Positions 6,354 to 28,437 of a DNA stretch of 32,518 nt are shown one piece after another (the first letter of the stretch is position 1; each line of letters starts with the position of its first letter). A model generated the notes under the pieces. The model had not been told where the DNA came from. It saw nothing but the letters and a program-made list of their open reading frames with translations, and ran no database searches. Location of the stretch: positions 1 to 32,518 of the IMG/VR virus record IMGVR_UViG_3300042564_000805; one strand, written 5' to 3'. Both the position numbers and the translations under genes were made by a program. The DNA comes from a virus.

Positions 6354-6714
6354 AGGAAATTATTTGTACGTAAAGTTTATAATGTTTTTTACCTAATGAC
6401 TCATCTGGTATTATATGCAATCCTTTGTAATATTTTTTATTGTCATCTATTATTAGATTGGTGCTCCTTAGATAATCAATCAGGAATTTACAATGCAATA
6501 TTGTATTGTCAGCGTCTAGCCTTGAATTATATCTTAACGTTAGCTGATATTCGTTTATTTGCCTATTGTTTTTAATTGGAATCTTTGAAAAAAGATTTGT
6601 CCAAAAAACTTTTTCCTTACTTCTTATTGTCCAATGAGGAGAGCTATAAAATTTGTTTAAGGATATATCTACTCCTTCCCATTCAAATAAAAGCTCATCT
6701 ATTATTTTATACAT
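6319..6714 (-). CDS. RusA-like Holliday junction resolvase
   Basis: 131 residues, close to the usual length of RusA. The signature is the cluster of acidic residues in LDADN (Asp67, Asp69), then FLIDYL (Asp80) and IIDDNKKY (Asp90, Asp91), matching the D-x-DN...D-L...DD pattern of the RusA fold that cuts Holliday junctions symmetrically. In phages it resolves recombination or replication intermediates before packaging. It follows the homing endonuclease gene with an eight-base overlap. Confidence 0.75.
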   Translation of the reverse strand: MYKIIDELLFEWEGVDISLNKFYSSPHWTIRSKEKVFWTNLFSKIPIKNNRQINEYQLTLRYNSRLDADNTILHCKFLIDYLRSTNLIIDDNKKYYKGLHIIPDESLGKKHYKLYVQIISYATKETKAYRA

Positions 6715-7684
6715 ATTGGAATCTATTTTTTGTTTTTACTCTTCCTTTTAGCCATCCTTTAAATGTAGAGTAATTAGCACATATAGATTCGCAAGCATCT
6801 TTAGCGCAATCGTAAAATATTCCATTTTCTAAATCTAAAACAATTTTGGCTTTAGGATTTTCTCCTCTTAATTGTGTGCCAATCTTAGATTTACTCATAT
6901 TTTTTCTCCATTCTTCTGAAAAAACTCTACCAGTTAACGCTTTTCTTATGTTTTCTTTTCTTGATTCTGAGCATGGTTTCCCAAAGAAAGGATGTTTCTC
7001 CCCTTTTTTAGATTCACTTATTTTTCTTTTAGTATCTTCAGAAACAACTTTGGCAGCCATCATAAGCCTGTGTGACAATAATCTTTCTTCAGAAAACTTT
7101 ACTCCTTTCATTGGGTTGCTTTTCCCAGTCATTCTATCGCGCAATTTCTGTTTATTTTCTTCAGAAATAGTCTTTCCTTTATGCTTATCTCCTATCTTCT
7201 TTTTTGTTTCTTCGGAATGTGTTCTTCCTATTAATGAATTCCTGATATTTTCGATTTGAGACTGAGGAAGTTTTCTTCCTTTGTTAATTTGGCTTAATTT
7301 AGATTTTACTTCATCAGAGTGAGTTTTCCCATACATATAATTTTTTTCGCCTTTAACTCTTTTAGATACAGCTTCCCTGAATTCTTTTGAGGCGACCCAT
7401 CCAGTTGTCCCATCTCCTCCATTTGTCATGTTAGATAAACTTCCTAATCCTAAATCTTTCCTTCCATATTCTTTTATTAAATCAATTTCTATCTGTTTAG
7501 CTTCGTCAAACGTTATGTTTTCTATAACAAATTCTACTCTGTATCCACATTTAGATACAATCTTTTTCCACAGGCTATTTCTTCCGAGTTTGGAATATGC
7601 TCTATTTTTTTTATCATTAGAACATATTCCAACATAGAATACCTCATTATTATCTAACCTTATGTGACGATATACATATCCCAT
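6707..7684 (-). CDS. GIY-YIG homing endonuclease with NUMOD repeats
   Basis: 325 residues. The N-terminal GIY-YIG catalytic domain has the paired motif YVYRHI...VFYVGI (residues 3-19) and a helix with candidate catalytic Glu (QIEIDLIKEY). The middle (about 105-275) consists of repeated NUMOD3-type DNA-contact modules of the form SEExKxKI followed by GKxNPMKGxxxSEE. The C-terminus (IVLDLENGIFYDCAKDAC...) resembles the NUMOD1/IENR helix-turn-helix module. This is the standard build of phage homing endonucleases, which cut a target allele and spread their own gene. It lies between an HTH gene and the RusA-like gene without an intron that I can see, so it is probably free-standing. Confidence 0.9.
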   Translation of the reverse strand: MGYVYRHIRLDNNEVFYVGICSNDKKNRAYSKLGRNSLWKKIVSKCGYRVEFVIENITFDEAKQIEIDLIKEYGRKDLGLGSLSNMTNGGDGTTGWVASKEFREAVSKRVKGEKNYMYGKTHSDEVKSKLSQINKGRKLPQSQIENIRNSLIGRTHSEETKKKIGDKHKGKTISEENKQKLRDRMTGKSNPMKGVKFSEERLLSHRLMMAAKVVSEDTKRKISESKKGEKHPFFGKPCSESRKENIRKALTGRVFSEEWRKNMSKSKIGTQLRGENPKAKIVLDLENGIFYDCAKDACESICANYSTFKGWLKGRVKTKNRFQYV

Positions 7685-17013: not shown

Positions 17014-18441
17014 CTAAAAAGGTGCTATGTTTACGTTTGTGTCAAAGTCAGGTTGAATACTTGCAATCACAGAGTTCTTGTAGGCTGGCTCTTGTGCAGT
17101 AAATCTAAATAACTCATCCTGTTCATCAGCTATTCTATTTGTAGTCACGTCGCAATACCTTATCACAGAGCCGACCATTCCATCTCTATTCTTTAGTAAT
17201 ATAAACTCTAGCGTGTAGTCGATATCAGGAACAGGTAAATTGTTAGCGCGCGCCTCCGCTTGAGCATAGTAGTAGGGTCTATATAATCCAATAACAACAG
17301 ATGCATCCTGCTCAATGTTACCCGAACTTCTGATATCAGATAATTGAGGACGCTTATCGCTTCTACCCTCAGCACCGCGGGACAATTGACTCAGGCAAAC
17401 AATTGGTATTCCAAGTTTACGTGTCAGCTTCTGAATCTTATTGGAAACAGAAGATACTTGACTGAAGTCATCCTGCCCGCGCATTTGATTGTCCCGAATC
17501 AACTGCATATAATCAATCACTACTATGTCAATCTTATTCTTTCTACATTCGCCAGTCAATATCATTGACAAGTAATTGACGTCACGATTATCTGAGTCAT
17601 AAAAGAATATAGGCAGTTGCTTTAACTCTCTAGCATTAGATAATCTAATCTTCTTAACGTCCTCTTGAGTAATTCGGTTAGCTTTGATGTCAGAGTACTT
17701 GTACTCAGGTGCTTCAGATGAAATGTAACGATACATAAGCGATTCCTTTGGCATCTCTAATGAAAGAAACAATACTCTCTTACCTGCTTTGGCGGAGGCT
17801 TTTGCAAAGTCTAACCCTACAATAGTTTTACCCATTGAAGGACGAGCCGCCACAACAATCATCCCCTCCTGCCATCCACCTAGTGCATAGTTTAACTTCC
17901 TTGAGCCTGTATCAATACCCGAAAACTTAACGTTCCCCGCATTAACTTCTAGTTTATCCATTACATTATCATAGACTTCGCTAAGAGTAAATATCTCAGT
18001 AGACTTAGTGCCTTCAACAATCTCAGACAATCCATTCTCAATAATAGATTGCATTGTTGCAACATCATCCCCGTCGCGAATAGCACATCCAAGCTGAGTA
18101 GCAATGTCGTTGTACCTTCGCTTGTTTTCTAATTCGCGAAGGGTGACACATACACTAGTTAAATCAAAAGCTCTTTTGGGAAGCAACTTAATTACCTTAG
18201 AAGAGTCTATGTTTAATTCTGATTCTTTTGATTTAAGGTCTCTAAATATATCATAACGAGTAAACGCCTTACTGTCTATATTAAACTCAACCATCGAAGC
18301 GAATGACGCCTTCATCAGCGGGTCTATAAAGACTTCTGCATCTATTATTTTAGAGGCATCCCTTACTAGGTGCGGGTGCTCTAGTAAATAAGAGACTACG
18401 TCTTCTTCTAATAAGGTATCTACTATGTTATTTGATTTCAT
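17014..18441 (-). CDS. dnaB: Replicative DNA helicase, DnaB-like
   Basis: 475 residues, the usual length. The N-terminal helical domain (about 1-150) is followed by the RecA-like motor: Walker A ARPSMGKT (199-206), H1a-like LFLSLEMPKESL, Walker B DIVVIDYMQL (about 305-313), then CLSQLSRGAEGR and QLSDIRSSGNIEQDAS, the sensor and arginine-finger region of DnaB hexamers. It unwinds DNA 5'-3' at the phage fork and would be loaded by the HTH initiator encoded just upstream (two bases apart). RecB-type nuclease and SSB genes lie in the same leftward block. I see no primase in the window, so priming may use the host enzyme or a gene elsewhere. Confidence 0.95.
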   Translation of the reverse strand: MKSNNIVDTLLEEDVVSYLLEHPHLVRDASKIIDAEVFIDPLMKASFASMVEFNIDSKAFTRYDIFRDLKSKESELNIDSSKVIKLLPKRAFDLTSVCVTLRELENKRRYNDIATQLGCAIRDGDDVATMQSIIENGLSEIVEGTKSTEIFTLSEVYDNVMDKLEVNAGNVKFSGIDTGSRKLNYALGGWQEGMIVVAARPSMGKTIVGLDFAKASAKAGKRVLFLSLEMPKESLMYRYISSEAPEYKYSDIKANRITQEDVKKIRLSNARELKQLPIFFYDSDNRDVNYLSMILTGECRKNKIDIVVIDYMQLIRDNQMRGQDDFSQVSSVSNKIQKLTRKLGIPIVCLSQLSRGAEGRSDKRPQLSDIRSSGNIEQDASVVIGLYRPYYYAQAEARANNLPVPDIDYTLEFILLKNRDGMVGSVIRYCDVTTNRIADEQDELFRFTAQEPAYKNSVIASIQPDFDTNVNIAPF

Positions 18442-18443
18442 AT

Positions 18444-19091
18444 TTAAAAATTATCAGGAATTACTATTTCTGTTATTTTGTTTGTTGATAGTGGAGTGGT
18501 CGTTAGCGTAGTGTTAGGCATTTCGTCCTCCCATACACGATGACCTATATAGCGTTCGGGGTCTTTACGGTACTTTACTTCTCTACTAGCGATATATAAT
18601 GGTAAAGCCTTAAATATATCTTCTATCTCTTTTTCTTTTAGCTTACTCCATTTAGCTTTAGCCTTATCCTTGCCTACCTTCTTATTGTAGATATTCCAAA
18701 ACTCTTCGAATCGTTCATTAGTATTATTATTTAATTCTTTATTAACCTTATATATTATGTGGTCATTTTTTACCATAGGCTCTGGTAAAATTTTATCAGA
18801 GGGGGGTGCATTTTTTACCATAGGTATTAAAAGCCTTAGCTCTCTGACATTCACCTCTCCATTAGGCTTTCTCTTAACTAATCTGCTAATCAAATGCTTC
18901 TCCTCTAAATAACTAATCCACTTCCTAACACTTTGAGAATTAACCCCCAGAGCATTACCTAGGTATTGATTACTTGCATAGCAGTATCCATCCTTAGCGG
19001 ATAGACTATTAATCAATCCCATAAGAATCTTATGCGAACACGATAAGTCTTCTCTTTTTAATAACTCGAAAGGGATTGCTATAAAACTCAT
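18444..19091 (-). CDS. Phage replication initiator (HTH, lambda O / DnaD-like layout) with iterons in the gene
   Basis: 215 residues. Residues about 15-72 form a winged helix-turn-helix (ASNQYLGNALGVNSQSVRKW, YLEEKHLISR), as in lambda O and replisome organisers. Residues 89-110 are a low-conservation linker whose DNA is an iteron array. The C-terminal part (RFEEFWNIYNKKVGKDKAKA, then RKDPERYIGHRVWEDE) is the helicase-partner type domain common in phage initiators. It should bind the iterons through the N-terminus and bring DnaB, encoded immediately downstream, to the origin. It starts in an ATGA overlap with a small upstream gene. Confidence 0.85.
   Translation of the reverse strand: MSFIAIPFELLKREDLSCSHKILMGLINSLSAKDGYCYASNQYLGNALGVNSQSVRKWISYLEEKHLISRLVKRKPNGEVNVRELRLLIPMVKNAPPSDKILPEPMVKNDHIIYKVNKELNNNTNERFEEFWNIYNKKVGKDKAKAKWSKLKEKEIEDIFKALPLYIASREVKYRKDPERYIGHRVWEDEMPNTTLTTTPLSTNKITEIVIPDNF
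18749..18824 (-). repeat. Iterons inside the initiator gene (probable origin)
   Basis: On the minus strand, CCTATGGTAAAAAA occurs at 18811-18824 and 18766-18779, 45 bases apart. Between them is a degenerate copy with a dyad, TCTGATAAAATTTTACCAGA (18781-18800). AT-rich DNA starting CCACATAATATATAA (18749-18763) follows. Iterons plus AT-rich DNA within the initiator gene is the lambda O arrangement. The same block recurs at 25681-25719. Confidence 0.75.
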
Positions 19092-24774: not shown

Positions 24775-24910
24775 TAGGCAAGGGGCAAATTTTGGAATTT
24801 GAAAACGGAAAACAGACCCCACCCCGTGAAAAAATCCCGTTTGTCGTATTGTGTGGCGAGTGGTCGGATAATATATATAACCTTCAACAAACAACTACAC
24901 GCTTCTAAAA

Positions 24911-24941
24911 TTGACATTATGGTAATATCTGTATATATTTA
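24911..24941 (+). promoter_or_regulatory. Rightward promoter of the head/packaging operon
   Basis: TTG (24911-24913), 20 bases, TATATTTA (24934-24941), one base off TAnnTTTG. A leader with AAACCAAACAAACATTTTA leads to the ATG at 24968. It is the best candidate for the late rightward transcript. Confidence 0.5.
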
Positions 24942-24967
24942 CGTTTATAAACCAAACAAACATTTTA

Positions 24968-25612
24968 ATGCTTACTTACGATATCAAAAAATCGCCACCA
25001 AATACTGTCGTGGTTGAGGTTGGTGCTTCAATGGATGATACTGTCCAATACGGTAATTTAAAGCTCCATATAGACCCTGAATTTAATCCTACGCAGTACG
25101 CTAGAATCTATGGTCGCGTAATAGCTGTGCCAGAAGGAAAAGCTTATAACGAAGAGTCTTTTGAGATAGAAAAAGAAGTCCAGATTGGGGACATCATTTA
25201 CTTTCATTACTTAACTACATCCGATGAAACGAACTGTATCTACGGCAACTATTATAAAGTACCTTATTATTGGATATTTTGTGTCGTTAGGAGTGGTAAT
25301 ATATTACCTGTTGGTGGCTGGACTTTATGTGAAACGGTGGTTGAGGAAGACTTTAATGCTGTTGAAGTTGGTGGTCAAAAGATTGAAGCTATAACATCGG
25401 CATCTGGACTAGTAATTGGTATCAACAAAAAGCCGTCAACTAAGTTTGCTCGATTATCTCACATTGGTCGACCATTAGTTGGAACAGATGAGTTAAAGAT
25501 AGGCAAAGGTGCGCTGGTAATCTTGAATAAAAACTCAAACTTTAAGAACACCATCGAAGGAAAAGAGTACTATACAGTGCGTCAGGGGGATATTTTATGT
25601 TCTAAAGACTAG
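24968..25612 (+). CDS. Tandem GroES-like (co-chaperonin fold) protein
   Basis: 214 residues that read as two GroES-like units. Unit 1 (about 10-118) has NTVVVEV at the start, IYGRVIAVPEG, VQIGDIIYFHY and a closing WIFCVVRSGNILPVGG. Unit 2 (about 130-214) has VIGINKKP, LKIGKGALVIL and KEYYTVRQGDILCSKD. The GD-x-V-x-F and (E/Y)-x-V-(R/S)-x-x-DIL blocks match GroES, whose mobile loop binds GroEL. Phage co-chaperonins such as T4 gp31 help fold the capsid protein, and this gene heads the operon that ends with the major capsid gene. The match is by eye and a degenerate structural GroES-like fold without chaperone activity is possible. Confidence 0.5.
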   Translation: MLTYDIKKSPPNTVVVEVGASMDDTVQYGNLKLHIDPEFNPTQYARIYGRVIAVPEGKAYNEESFEIEKEVQIGDIIYFHYLTTSDETNCIYGNYYKVPYYWIFCVVRSGNILPVGGWTLCETVVEEDFNAVEVGGQKIEAITSASGLVIGINKKPSTKFARLSHIGRPLVGTDELKIGKGALVILNKNSNFKNTIEGKEYYTVRQGDILCSKD

Positions 25613-25617
25613 CTACC

Positions 25618-25750
25618 CCTATGGTAAAATATTACCACACCCCTATGGTAAAATTAGATGGGACCCTATGGTAAAAATCTACCAGAGCCTATGGTAAAAT
25701 TTTACCACATAATATATAATATAATAAATAAGTATAATAAATATACTATA
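25618..25750 (+). repeat. Intergenic iteron array with AT-rich segment (probable replication origin)
   Basis: Four CCTATGGTAAAA units start at 25618, 25642, 25665 and 25688 (spacing 24, 23, 23). Units 1, 3 and 4 continue into inverted TACCA, and unit 4 forms the perfect dyad TGGTAAAATTTTACCA (25692-25707 region). A 42-base stretch with only two G/C bases follows (25709-25750), as expected of a DNA unwinding element. The last unit and the AT start match the array in the initiator gene (36 of 39 positions). The rest of the gap up to 25874 has two short stems (GCTC-GCG-GAGC, CTCC-GAA-GGAG) and a GCCGC-rich tract, but no gene. Confidence 0.75.
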
Positions 25751-25874
25751 GCTCGCGGAGCAAAAGACTTTTATCACCCTAGAAGAGAAGACCTCCGAAG
25801 GAGAAAAAGAATTGGGACGCCGCGCCGCCGCCGAGTTTCAATACCACGTAACATATAGTAGGAGCATAACAGAT

Positions 25875-26435
25875 ATGGCATTATTTAACAAAGAAGATTT
25901 CTCAGACTTAGCAATACCTATCTATGATAGCAACCTTGCTAAAAATCCAATTATCAAACAGGTATTTGGAAACCCACCCGCTTCGGATATTCCAATTCTT
26001 ATCTACGTTGCACTCATATATGACCAAAAGAGTCCGCTGCGATTAAAGATATCTAATATACAGGAGCGTAAGGAGGAGGCTGCTGAGATGGCAGGTATCA
26101 AAACAGACACAACTGACATCTTTGATTTAAGAGACAATAATATCCTTGGCTATATAAACTCCTATCTGCGCCATCAATCGTCCAAGGTATGGTCAGTATT
26201 AGCCGCTAACGAAGAAGTGTTGTGGCAGTATCAGCAAGAGTTGTTAACTCCTATCAAAGATTTTAAAAATGACAAAGATAAACTGCAAGCACTTGAAATT
26301 AAAACCAAGTTGATGCAGGAGTGTGATGCTATTATTAAAAGAATAGACGCTTACGAAGATAAACTCTTTGGCGACACTAAAGAGAAGAAGAGTGAGATTC
26401 TTAACCTAACGCCTGAAGCAATAGCAAATGTATAG
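25875..26435 (+). CDS. Protein upstream of TerL, possible small terminase subunit
   Basis: 186 residues from MALFNKEDFSDLAIPIYDSN; the longer frame runs back through the spacer and is not used. A real Shine-Dalgarno-like AGGAG lies ten bases before the ATG, unusual in this window. The middle (LRLKISNIQERKEEAAEMAG) and the long charged C-terminal helices (LQALEIKTKLMQECDAIIKR) are helical. It overlaps the large terminase start by eight bases. Position and helical, oligomer-like build suggest a small terminase; no DNA-binding motif is certain. Confidence 0.6.
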   Translation: MALFNKEDFSDLAIPIYDSNLAKNPIIKQVFGNPPASDIPILIYVALIYDQKSPLRLKISNIQERKEEAAEMAGIKTDTTDIFDLRDNNILGYINSYLRHQSSKVWSVLAANEEVLWQYQQELLTPIKDFKNDKDKLQALEIKTKLMQECDAIIKRIDAYEDKLFGDTKEKKSEILNLTPEAIANV

Positions 26436-28437
26436 AAAACACGCTAAAGGAAAGCTTTATGAGATTAACGGTATAACGGTTAGTATCCCGCCAAACGGTT
26501 ATGTGTTCAATATTATTACTAACCAATGGGAGAAGCGCGAGATAATGTCTCGTTCTGTTAAGAAGGATTACCAGTACTGGGAGAGACCTGAGCCGCCTAA
26601 AGACTACGAAACAAAACGTAAGAAAGAGATTGCGGCTCAAAAGTCAAGTCCAGAGTATTATAATCCTGAGCTACAAGAATACCGCAACCAAGAATGGGAC
26701 AGACGTCTTAATGGATTCTGGTTCTACAACAACGGTCACGCTACTTACATAACGGGCTTACATTACTTCTACTTAGTGCATTGGAAACTTGACGTAGGGT
26801 ATCCTTCCTTCAGGATGACTGACAGAGACTTCTTTATGTTTTTGGAATACTGTATTCAAGACCCTAACTGCTTAGGAATGGTTGAGGTAACTAAGCGTCG
26901 TCAAGGAAAGACTATGCGAGCAGGTGCATTCCTTTTTGAATTAACATCTCGAAGCAAGAACAAGAACGCTGGTATCCAGTCGAAGACATTTGAGGATGCC
27001 AAGGAGAATGTATTTGCTAAAGGAGTTGTAATGCCATTTAAATACTTACCTGATTTCTTTGTTCCTATTTACGATACTGAAAAGGGTATGACTCCTAAAG
27101 GAGAGCTTCGTTTCTTTAAGACTAATAAGCGAGGCAAGGATGATGATGTTTTTGCAGAAAAGATTGAGCTAGAATCTTCTATTACATTTAAGTCTGCTGA
27201 TAAGTTTGCTTACGATGGTATGAAGCTCCACAGATACTTAGGAGACGAGGCAGGCAAGACAAAGAACGTTGACGTGTACGACAGACATCAGGTCTTACAG
27301 TTCTGTCTCCAGCAGGAAGAGAATATTATCGGTAAGGCTTTGTACACTACTACCGTCGAGGAAATGGAGGACGGAGGAGAATCCTTTAAAATGTTGTGGG
27401 ACGCATCTAACCAAAACGAGAAGAATAAGAACGGCAGAACACGTTCAGGATTGTACCAGTACTTTATGCCTGCTTACAAGACATTATTCTACGATAAGTT
27501 TGGTCAAGCTGACGAAGAAAAGGCAAAAGAATTTTATATGGCAGAACGTGCTGCTTTAGAGATGGACCCGCGCGCATTGGCTTCTTTTATACGCAAGAAC
27601 CCTTTTACGATAGGTGAGGCATTCTTTAGTGAAGCAGAGACTTGTTTGTATGATGCGATGGCATTGAACAGACAGATGGAATCTATATCGTGGATTGCTG
27701 AAAAAGATTTATATTTGCGTGGAGAATTTGTTTGGGAAAAAGCAGAGCGCGACAGTAGGGTTGTTTTCAACGAGACGTCTAATGGAAAGTTCTTAGTTCA
27801 TAAGAAGCTTAACATATACGACTACGCTAACTTTAACCAAGTAGAGGAGTATGGCAGCAGAAAGGTGCCAAAAGAAAGTAAGAAGTACGCAATAGCAGTT
27901 GACCCCTTTGACCATAGCATTACAACAAGTAAGGAGCGGTCAGATGGTGCAGCTTATGTGTATAGGAGATATGATGCGGTAGATGAGTTTAGCGAGACAT
28001 TCTTAGTTGAATATCTTAACAGACCTGAGAAGGCTGAGATATTCTACGAGGATATGATTAAGCTTTGTCATTTCTTTGGATGCGAGATATTGTCCGAGGA
28101 CAACAAGGTTGGATTGATTAAGTACTTTGAGTACAGGGGCTATGAGAAATTTTTAGTTAAATTACCTGGTGCAAATAAGTATGGAATCTCTGCAACAGTT
28201 AAGACGCACCAGCAGATTGCAGAAGTAACAGAAAGTTATATTACAGAGAACGTAGAAAAGGTTATCTTTATGCGATTATTAAAAGACTGGTTAACTTTTG
28301 ATATTAATAAGACTACCAAGTTTGACGCCGCGATGGCATCTGGTTATACATTAATACAGGCTAACAAGTCTAAGTTTAGTGAAAGAGTAGAGCAAAAACA
28401 AAAAATATACGATATAAGGGAGATATTCCCATTTTAA
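26428..28437 (+). CDS. terL: Terminase large subunit
   Basis: 669 residues. ATPase: Walker A variant KRRQGKT (156-162) and Walker B HRYLGDEAG with Asp273-Glu274, then a coupling region near TTTVEEME. RNase H-like nuclease: IAVDPFDHS (Asp492), ILSEDNK (Asp558) and KFDAAMASG (Asp633), the three acidic sites that cut concatemeric DNA. It pumps DNA into the prohead through the portal encoded next (three bases on) and makes the cuts. Complete and in the usual size range. Confidence 0.93.
   Translation: MYRKHAKGKLYEINGITVSIPPNGYVFNIITNQWEKREIMSRSVKKDYQYWERPEPPKDYETKRKKEIAAQKSSPEYYNPELQEYRNQEWDRRLNGFWFYNNGHATYITGLHYFYLVHWKLDVGYPSFRMTDRDFFMFLEYCIQDPNCLGMVEVTKRRQGKTMRAGAFLFELTSRSKNKNAGIQSKTFEDAKENVFAKGVVMPFKYLPDFFVPIYDTEKGMTPKGELRFFKTNKRGKDDDVFAEKIELESSITFKSADKFAYDGMKLHRYLGDEAGKTKNVDVYDRHQVLQFCLQQEENIIGKALYTTTVEEMEDGGESFKMLWDASNQNEKNKNGRTRSGLYQYFMPAYKTLFYDKFGQADEEKAKEFYMAERAALEMDPRALASFIRKNPFTIGEAFFSEAETCLYDAMALNRQMESISWIAEKDLYLRGEFVWEKAERDSRVVFNETSNGKFLVHKKLNIYDYANFNQVEEYGSRKVPKESKKYAIAVDPFDHSITTSKERSDGAAYVYRRYDAVDEFSETFLVEYLNRPEKAEIFYEDMIKLCHFFGCEILSEDNKVGLIKYFEYRGYEKFLVKLPGANKYGISATVKTHQQIAEVTESYITENVEKVIFMRLLKDWLTFDINKTTKFDAAMASGYTLIQANKSKFSERVEQKQKIYDIREIFPF

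Follow-up and report, generated by a model that had tools for sequence, protein, structure and literature searches.

Inverted iteron arrays in the initiator gene and before the terminase genes agree within each phage of a marine group and suggest a two-origin layout

Why should a phage carry the iterons of its replication initiator gene a second time, several kilobases away, in a non-coding gap before its terminase genes? The question is raised by a 32.5-kb virus record (32,518 nucleotides, the window in what follows), which holds both an array within the initiator gene and an intergenic array between a groES-like gene and a gene in the small-terminase position (TerS-like). The features concerned are the following.

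17014..18441, minus strand: DnaB-type replicative helicase, adjoining the initiator gene
18444..19091, minus strand: replication initiator, 215 aa, with an N-terminal HTH_36 winged helix and a C-terminal FEEFW..Y domain (PHROG 270, 'replication initiation protein')
18714..18758, minus strand: AT-rich tract after the gene array, 89% AT (from composition)
18760..18824, minus strand: array within the initiator gene, three units, predicted to code for the linker that joins the HTH and C-terminal domains
24968..25612, plus strand: groES-like gene (Cpn10 domain), left neighbour of the intergenic array
25618..25707, plus strand: intergenic iteron array, four 16-bp dyad units (from sequence)
25622-25637, plus strand: intergenic unit 1, dyad, TGGTAAAATATTACCA
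25646-25661, plus strand: intergenic unit 2, dyad with a degenerate right half
25669-25684, plus strand: intergenic unit 3, dyad, TGGTAAAAATCTACCA
25692-25707, plus strand: intergenic unit 4, dyad, TGGTAAAATTTTACCA
25708..25752, plus strand: AT-rich tract directly past the last iteron, 89% AT, resembling an unwinding element (from composition)
25875..26435, plus strand: gene in the small-terminase position, right neighbour of the array; no family match, ATG start judged from relatives
26428..28437, plus strand: terminase large subunit (TerL; PHROG 6681)

Two inverted arrays in the window

We found six exact copies of CCTATGGTAAAA in the window, just where the initial annotation had placed them: four on the plus strand at 25618, 25642, 25665 and 25688 (spanning 25618-25699), and two on the minus strand at 18768 and 18813 (spanning 18768-18824). 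When up to two mismatches were allowed, 13 matches were obtained compared with 4.4 expected, a count reached in 0 of 100 shuffles, which excludes chance. The array in the initiator gene thus has a genuine sister in the intergenic one. The intergenic units follow one another at steps of 24, 23 and 23 bp, in line with the annotated fourfold array of 23-24 bp period. Because each unit is a dyad, TGGTAAAA-TTTTACCA, whose best form is TGGTAAAATTTTACCA, the binding unit is probably this 16-bp dyad rather than the 12-mer. The gene-array units, not all of them perfect, lie at 18820-18805, 18798-18783 and 18775-18760 of the minus strand.

The longest annotated match between the arrays, 36 of 39 bases, was reproduced exactly, with the correction that 25681-25719 pairs with 18748-18786 of the minus strand and not with 18749-18786, one base off. 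The AT stretch noticed beside the intergenic array was also recovered; both tracts rank in the top 0.15% of the 45-bp windows, and each lies on the same side of its iterons in array orientation. The two arrays are inverted to each other, and the AT tracts point outward. The short peptide LPEPMVK..HIIY, which can be translated from both arrays and had been read as a surviving reading frame, proved incidental: stops occur in the intergenic frames and the 23-bp steps break the frame, ruling out a peptide encoded by the intergenic array.

A search of the window against Rfam gave no RNA family match. In the gap between the AT tract and the TerS-like start (25753-25874, and its counterpart in relatives), a small hairpin was observed whose stem varies among phages (CTCCGAAGGAG, GGAGCTTGCTCC, GGAAACTTGTTTCC), and the gap also contains a GGGACGCCGCGCCGCC run; these are possibly a leader RNA element or related to packaging. 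Elsewhere in the window, 6707-7684 on the minus strand encodes a GIY-YIG protein that carries five NUMOD3 motifs and is probably a homing endonuclease.

The paired arrays in related phages

Related contigs were found with the initiator, TerS-like protein and TerL as queries; a profile search placed initiators in 21 of 27 records, and groES, TerS, TerL, the initiator gene and dnaB were located in the fetched records. Both places were held by 24 records, the window included, and the intergenic place only by G002 and G004. Near-duplicates are present among the 24, so that there are fewer than 24 independent cases, and 12 of the records are close relatives with a TerL at least 93% identical to that of the window. 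The group consists of marine phages in which the arrays lie about 6-10.6 kb apart. Iterons were found inside the initiator gene in 24 of 24 records, with a DnaB-family helicase gene close by. The groES-TerS gap holds an array of 3-5 units, whose dyads are usually cleaner than those in the gene, and then an AT-rich tract; in the window, TerL and portal genes come after the TerS-like gene. The second array, which relatives might have lacked, thus occupies one and the same position in every related phage examined.

Among named phages, those whose terminase is similar (about 31% identity or less) have Flavobacterium and Cellulophaga as hosts. By shared k-mers, no paired array was identified in elemo phage NC_055852, MW202828 or Cellulophaga phi13:2 (the first 50 kb of the latter two), and related initiators on other backbones showed no second array within their loci, up to 10 kb on each side. 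The arrangement therefore seems bound to this phage backbone, and these absences double as negative controls.

The best genome-wide 11-mer match of the intergenic array was the initiator gene upstream of dnaB in 24 of 24 records. Random 220-bp fragments of the same genome attained the match count of the array in 0-11 of 300 draws (11 records tested). The two arrays of one phage shared 63.1 8-mers on average, compared with 19.5 for other pairs (24 records; 0 of 100,000 permutations), and the 12 close relatives gave 63.2 and 30.7, respectively (0 of 100,000 permutations). Chance or composition as the source of the match was ruled out by the shuffles, the permutations and the random-fragment draws. 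The own gene array was not the single best match only in records that share their unit type with a neighbour, and in G003.

About ten iteron types were identified, strongly different between phages and alike within one. Among them are TGGTAAAA (G000, G009), TGGTAAC (G006), TGATGC (G005), TGCTAC (G011), TGGTGT (G007, G008, G010, G012, G013) and TGCCCC/TGTCCC (G001), and distant records carry the unit words TTCGAAAATCGAA (G017), CGTTCAACGACCGTTCAAC (G022), TATGCATTTGCAT (G023) and TTGGATTTTCCAA (G025). These results show that the iteron sequence agrees between the two places within each phage and that the paired architecture is conserved, with G003 as a partial exception.

We found that similarity of the intergenic array follows the initiator N-terminus, its DNA-binding part (Mantel rho 0.62, p = 0.001), but not groES (rho 0.07), TerS (rho 0.22, p 0.096) or TerL (rho 0.18, p 0.14), either alone or in partial correlation. 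G000 and G001, for example, are 98.7% identical in TerL, 98.9% in TerS and 96.3% in groES, whereas their initiator N-termini are 58% identical and their iterons unlike (TGGTAAAA vs TGCCCC/TGTCCC). Over 91 pairs of close relatives, mean identity was 0.60 in the array and higher in both flanks (0.78 for the groES end, 0.83 for the AT tract), which indicates that the piece exchanged or rewritten is the array of about 100 bp itself.

In G003 the initiator is almost that of G001 and the intergenic array resembles that of G011, its units sharing 55 8-mers with the G011 initiator gene and 42 with its own. Three of its four intergenic units carry the TGCCCC half, as does its own gene array; because the helix residues SGIRKC and the TGCCCC half-site are common to the two types, the array may still be readable by the G003 initiator. 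This record may be a recent recombinant or a mixed assembly. It also carries (L151, at about 31860-32530 of the record) a gene that from its translation resembles a homing endonuclease, between the initiator gene and dnaB. In the intergenic arrays of G003 and G011 (L152:40010 region and L221), the inter-iteron spacers are the reverse complement of those of other close relatives, with the side of the AT tract unchanged. Another contig, L024 (6257 bp), corresponds to the window from 21281 to about 25653, continues through an array and then leads without a break to the C-terminal part of the initiator gene and to dnaB (from window 18804 downwards), the join of groES, array, initiator C-terminal half and dnaB lying at L024:4030-6257. 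Such a join is as expected of an inversion between two inverted arrays, but it could equally be due to misassembly at the repeats.

The initiator and its half-sites

The initiator has no sequence relative in the PDB. AlphaFold gave a plausible winged helix for residues 18-87 (blocks with pLDDT 61-83, moderate confidence), with helices at 18-30, 41-48 and 52-64 and strands at 68-74 and 80-87, and the recognition helix is assigned to 52-64 with moderate confidence. The C-terminal half was modelled poorly (mean 53). Judged from the coordinates and the model, the gene array would encode a low-confidence linker past the winged helix.

By visual comparison in a small sample, the first residues of the recognition helix vary with the half-site: QSVRKW or ENVRKW goes with TGGTAA, EGVRTC or DGVRTC with TGGTGT, SGVRNC with TGATGC, SGIRKC with TGCTAC or TGTCCC, and EATRKC with TGGTAAC. 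The N-terminus of the G022 initiator is a Lin1244_N domain, unrelated to HTH_36, and still its two arrays match, with a AAAGTAAAG-type AT tract common to both places; by alignment, G023 and G024 are of the same kind. In G018 and G025 the HTH_36 match falls below the curated cut-off, and their arrays are still paired. This covariation suggests that the winged helix recognises the half-sites of the iterons in both arrays, and recognition of both arrays by one initiator is strongly supported. Since both arrays change with the DNA preference of the initiator, both are probably in use.

Candidate functions of the intergenic array

Two origins, titration of the initiator and a replication switch had been proposed at the outset, and with an array at the same place in all relatives that carries the specificity of the initiator, these are the right candidates. 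We favour, with a probability of roughly 0.7, two origin modules, each of iterons and an AT-rich tract, served by one initiator in a layout like that of SPP1 oriL and oriR. From its anatomy, the intergenic module would be a working origin, probably the main or late one, because it is free of coding constraint and in most phages has more units and a more AT-rich tract; the gene-internal module would be a second origin. The highest 45-bp AT content averaged 0.89 at the intergenic place and 0.85 in the gene, compared with 0.63 for the genome. An AT-rich tract adjoins the intergenic iterons in nearly all records (that of G023 is weak, 0.71, by composition only), and units and AT content are generally higher outside the gene, although in G023 and G024 the gene tract is slightly the more AT-rich. 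The unit steps shrink toward the AT tract, 24-23-22 bp in most close relatives.

Cumulative GC skew, a check proposed with the initial annotation, reached its minimum close to the intergenic array, at 0.5-2.5 kb to its left, in all 13 long records (62-66 kb), and not at the gene array 6-10.6 kb off; the genes change strand immediately to the left of groES, which confounds this result. Skew was also weaker between the arrays than beyond the gene array in 13 of 13 records, with long frames mostly in the same direction except in G025. Given this strand change and the kinship of the records, both results are suggestive only as support for an origin.

In SPP1, G38P binds oriL within its own gene and the intergenic oriR in the late region, about 12-13 kb apart; each consists of direct repeats and an AT-rich unwinding element, a DnaB-family helicase is present, and oriR, when occupied, has been proposed to halt the fork and to set off concatemer synthesis (PMC6316719, PMC3485210). 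Likewise, the phages studied here have one array in the initiator gene, a second array of these repeats in non-coding DNA far from it, a DnaB-family helicase by the initiator and, by composition, an AT-rich tract beside each array. Unlike in SPP1, the arrays are inverted and about 6-10.6 kb apart, the iterons of close relatives are 16-bp dyads, both arrays have followed many replacements of the specificity, and the phages are related to those of Flavobacterium and Cellulophaga. The likeness is one of layout. SPP1 is the only phage of this two-origin layout that we found in the open-access literature, and the role of its second origin is still a model. With two origins here, one initiator would bind the dyad iterons at both modules, and the AT-rich tract into which the iteron row runs would unwind; initiator on the non-firing module may stall a fork, as proposed for SPP1 oriL/oriR, and the stalled fork may help to switch from circle to concatemer replication before packaging.

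More tentatively, the two arrays may form one obligate, co-evolving replication unit, in which the DNA-binding domain has been repeatedly replaced and the distant array re-matched each time. Replacement would perhaps be driven by origin-directed nucleases, decoys or rival phages, and re-matching would occur either by a swap of the array itself (about 100 bp) or through recombination of the inverted arrays with each other, of which the join in L024 may be a caught case. In the PLE satellites of V. cholerae, the DNA-binding half of RepA and the iterons covary and swap as a module, with the C-terminal half kept, and a nuclease attacking the origin iterons is known and proposed as a cause of the swaps (PMC8263062). 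Whereas those satellites have one origin each, here two separated arrays change in step. Iterons within an initiator gene that encode part of the protein and are followed by an AT-rich tract are also known from lambda O (PMC7466680); lambda has a single origin, and here a second array lies outside the gene, giving two per genome.

Among the alternatives to two origins, we regard it as unlikely that the intergenic array is an operator, with no origin, at which the accumulating initiator binds ahead of the packaging genes, in their leader, and sets the timing of late transcription. That the array lies in the leader of the late plus-strand block, flanked by groES and the TerS-like gene, fits this, and an operator would explain the tracking of the initiator equally well. 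However, an operator needs neither an AT-rich tract on the same side as in the gene copy nor the copying of the sequence type of that tract seen in the G022 group, and a sigma-70 model, outside which Bacteroidota promoters fall, showed no promoter-like excess at 24800-26500 (6 found vs 5.3 expected).

Phage P4 (ori/crr), F (incC) and P1 (incA) have a further iteron set that is separate from the origin and bound by the initiator that acts there. In these systems the arrays are not in the initiator gene, unlike here, and we know of no set of their relatives in which both iteron sets were replaced in step. A role of the array in limiting initiation, by titration or handcuffing as at incC or incA, would agree with 3-5 units of the same specificity outside the initiator gene, and ectopic lambda origins do block lambda replication (PMC4488673). 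This seems less likely still than an operator: loci of the incC/incA type are extra iterons without an unwinding element and a pure control site needs none, whereas an AT-rich tract adjoins the intergenic iterons in nearly all records; a lytic phage would also presumably have less need of copy control.

A pac site for the small terminase, resembling the gene array by shared ancestry only, is very improbable despite the position immediately upstream of the TerS-like gene, and was rejected because the array does not follow TerS: terminases 98.7-98.9% identical in G000 and G001 go with completely different iterons. Just as improbable is a functionless chance copy or, as also suggested initially, a relic of an older or recombined initiator gene, to which the sequence match to the coding array and the common peptide had pointed; a relic would decay or keep an old specificity, whereas every relative examined has the array, intact (3-5 units), without the frames and in agreement with its present initiator, which refutes this reading.

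Two separated arrays that keep step through many changes of specificity were not found described in the open-access literature. Because both arrays have switched specificity many times, these joint switches indicate that the second array is kept by selection. The phage group thereby offers a natural set of matched initiator-iteron pairs for studying the recognition code and for swap experiments.
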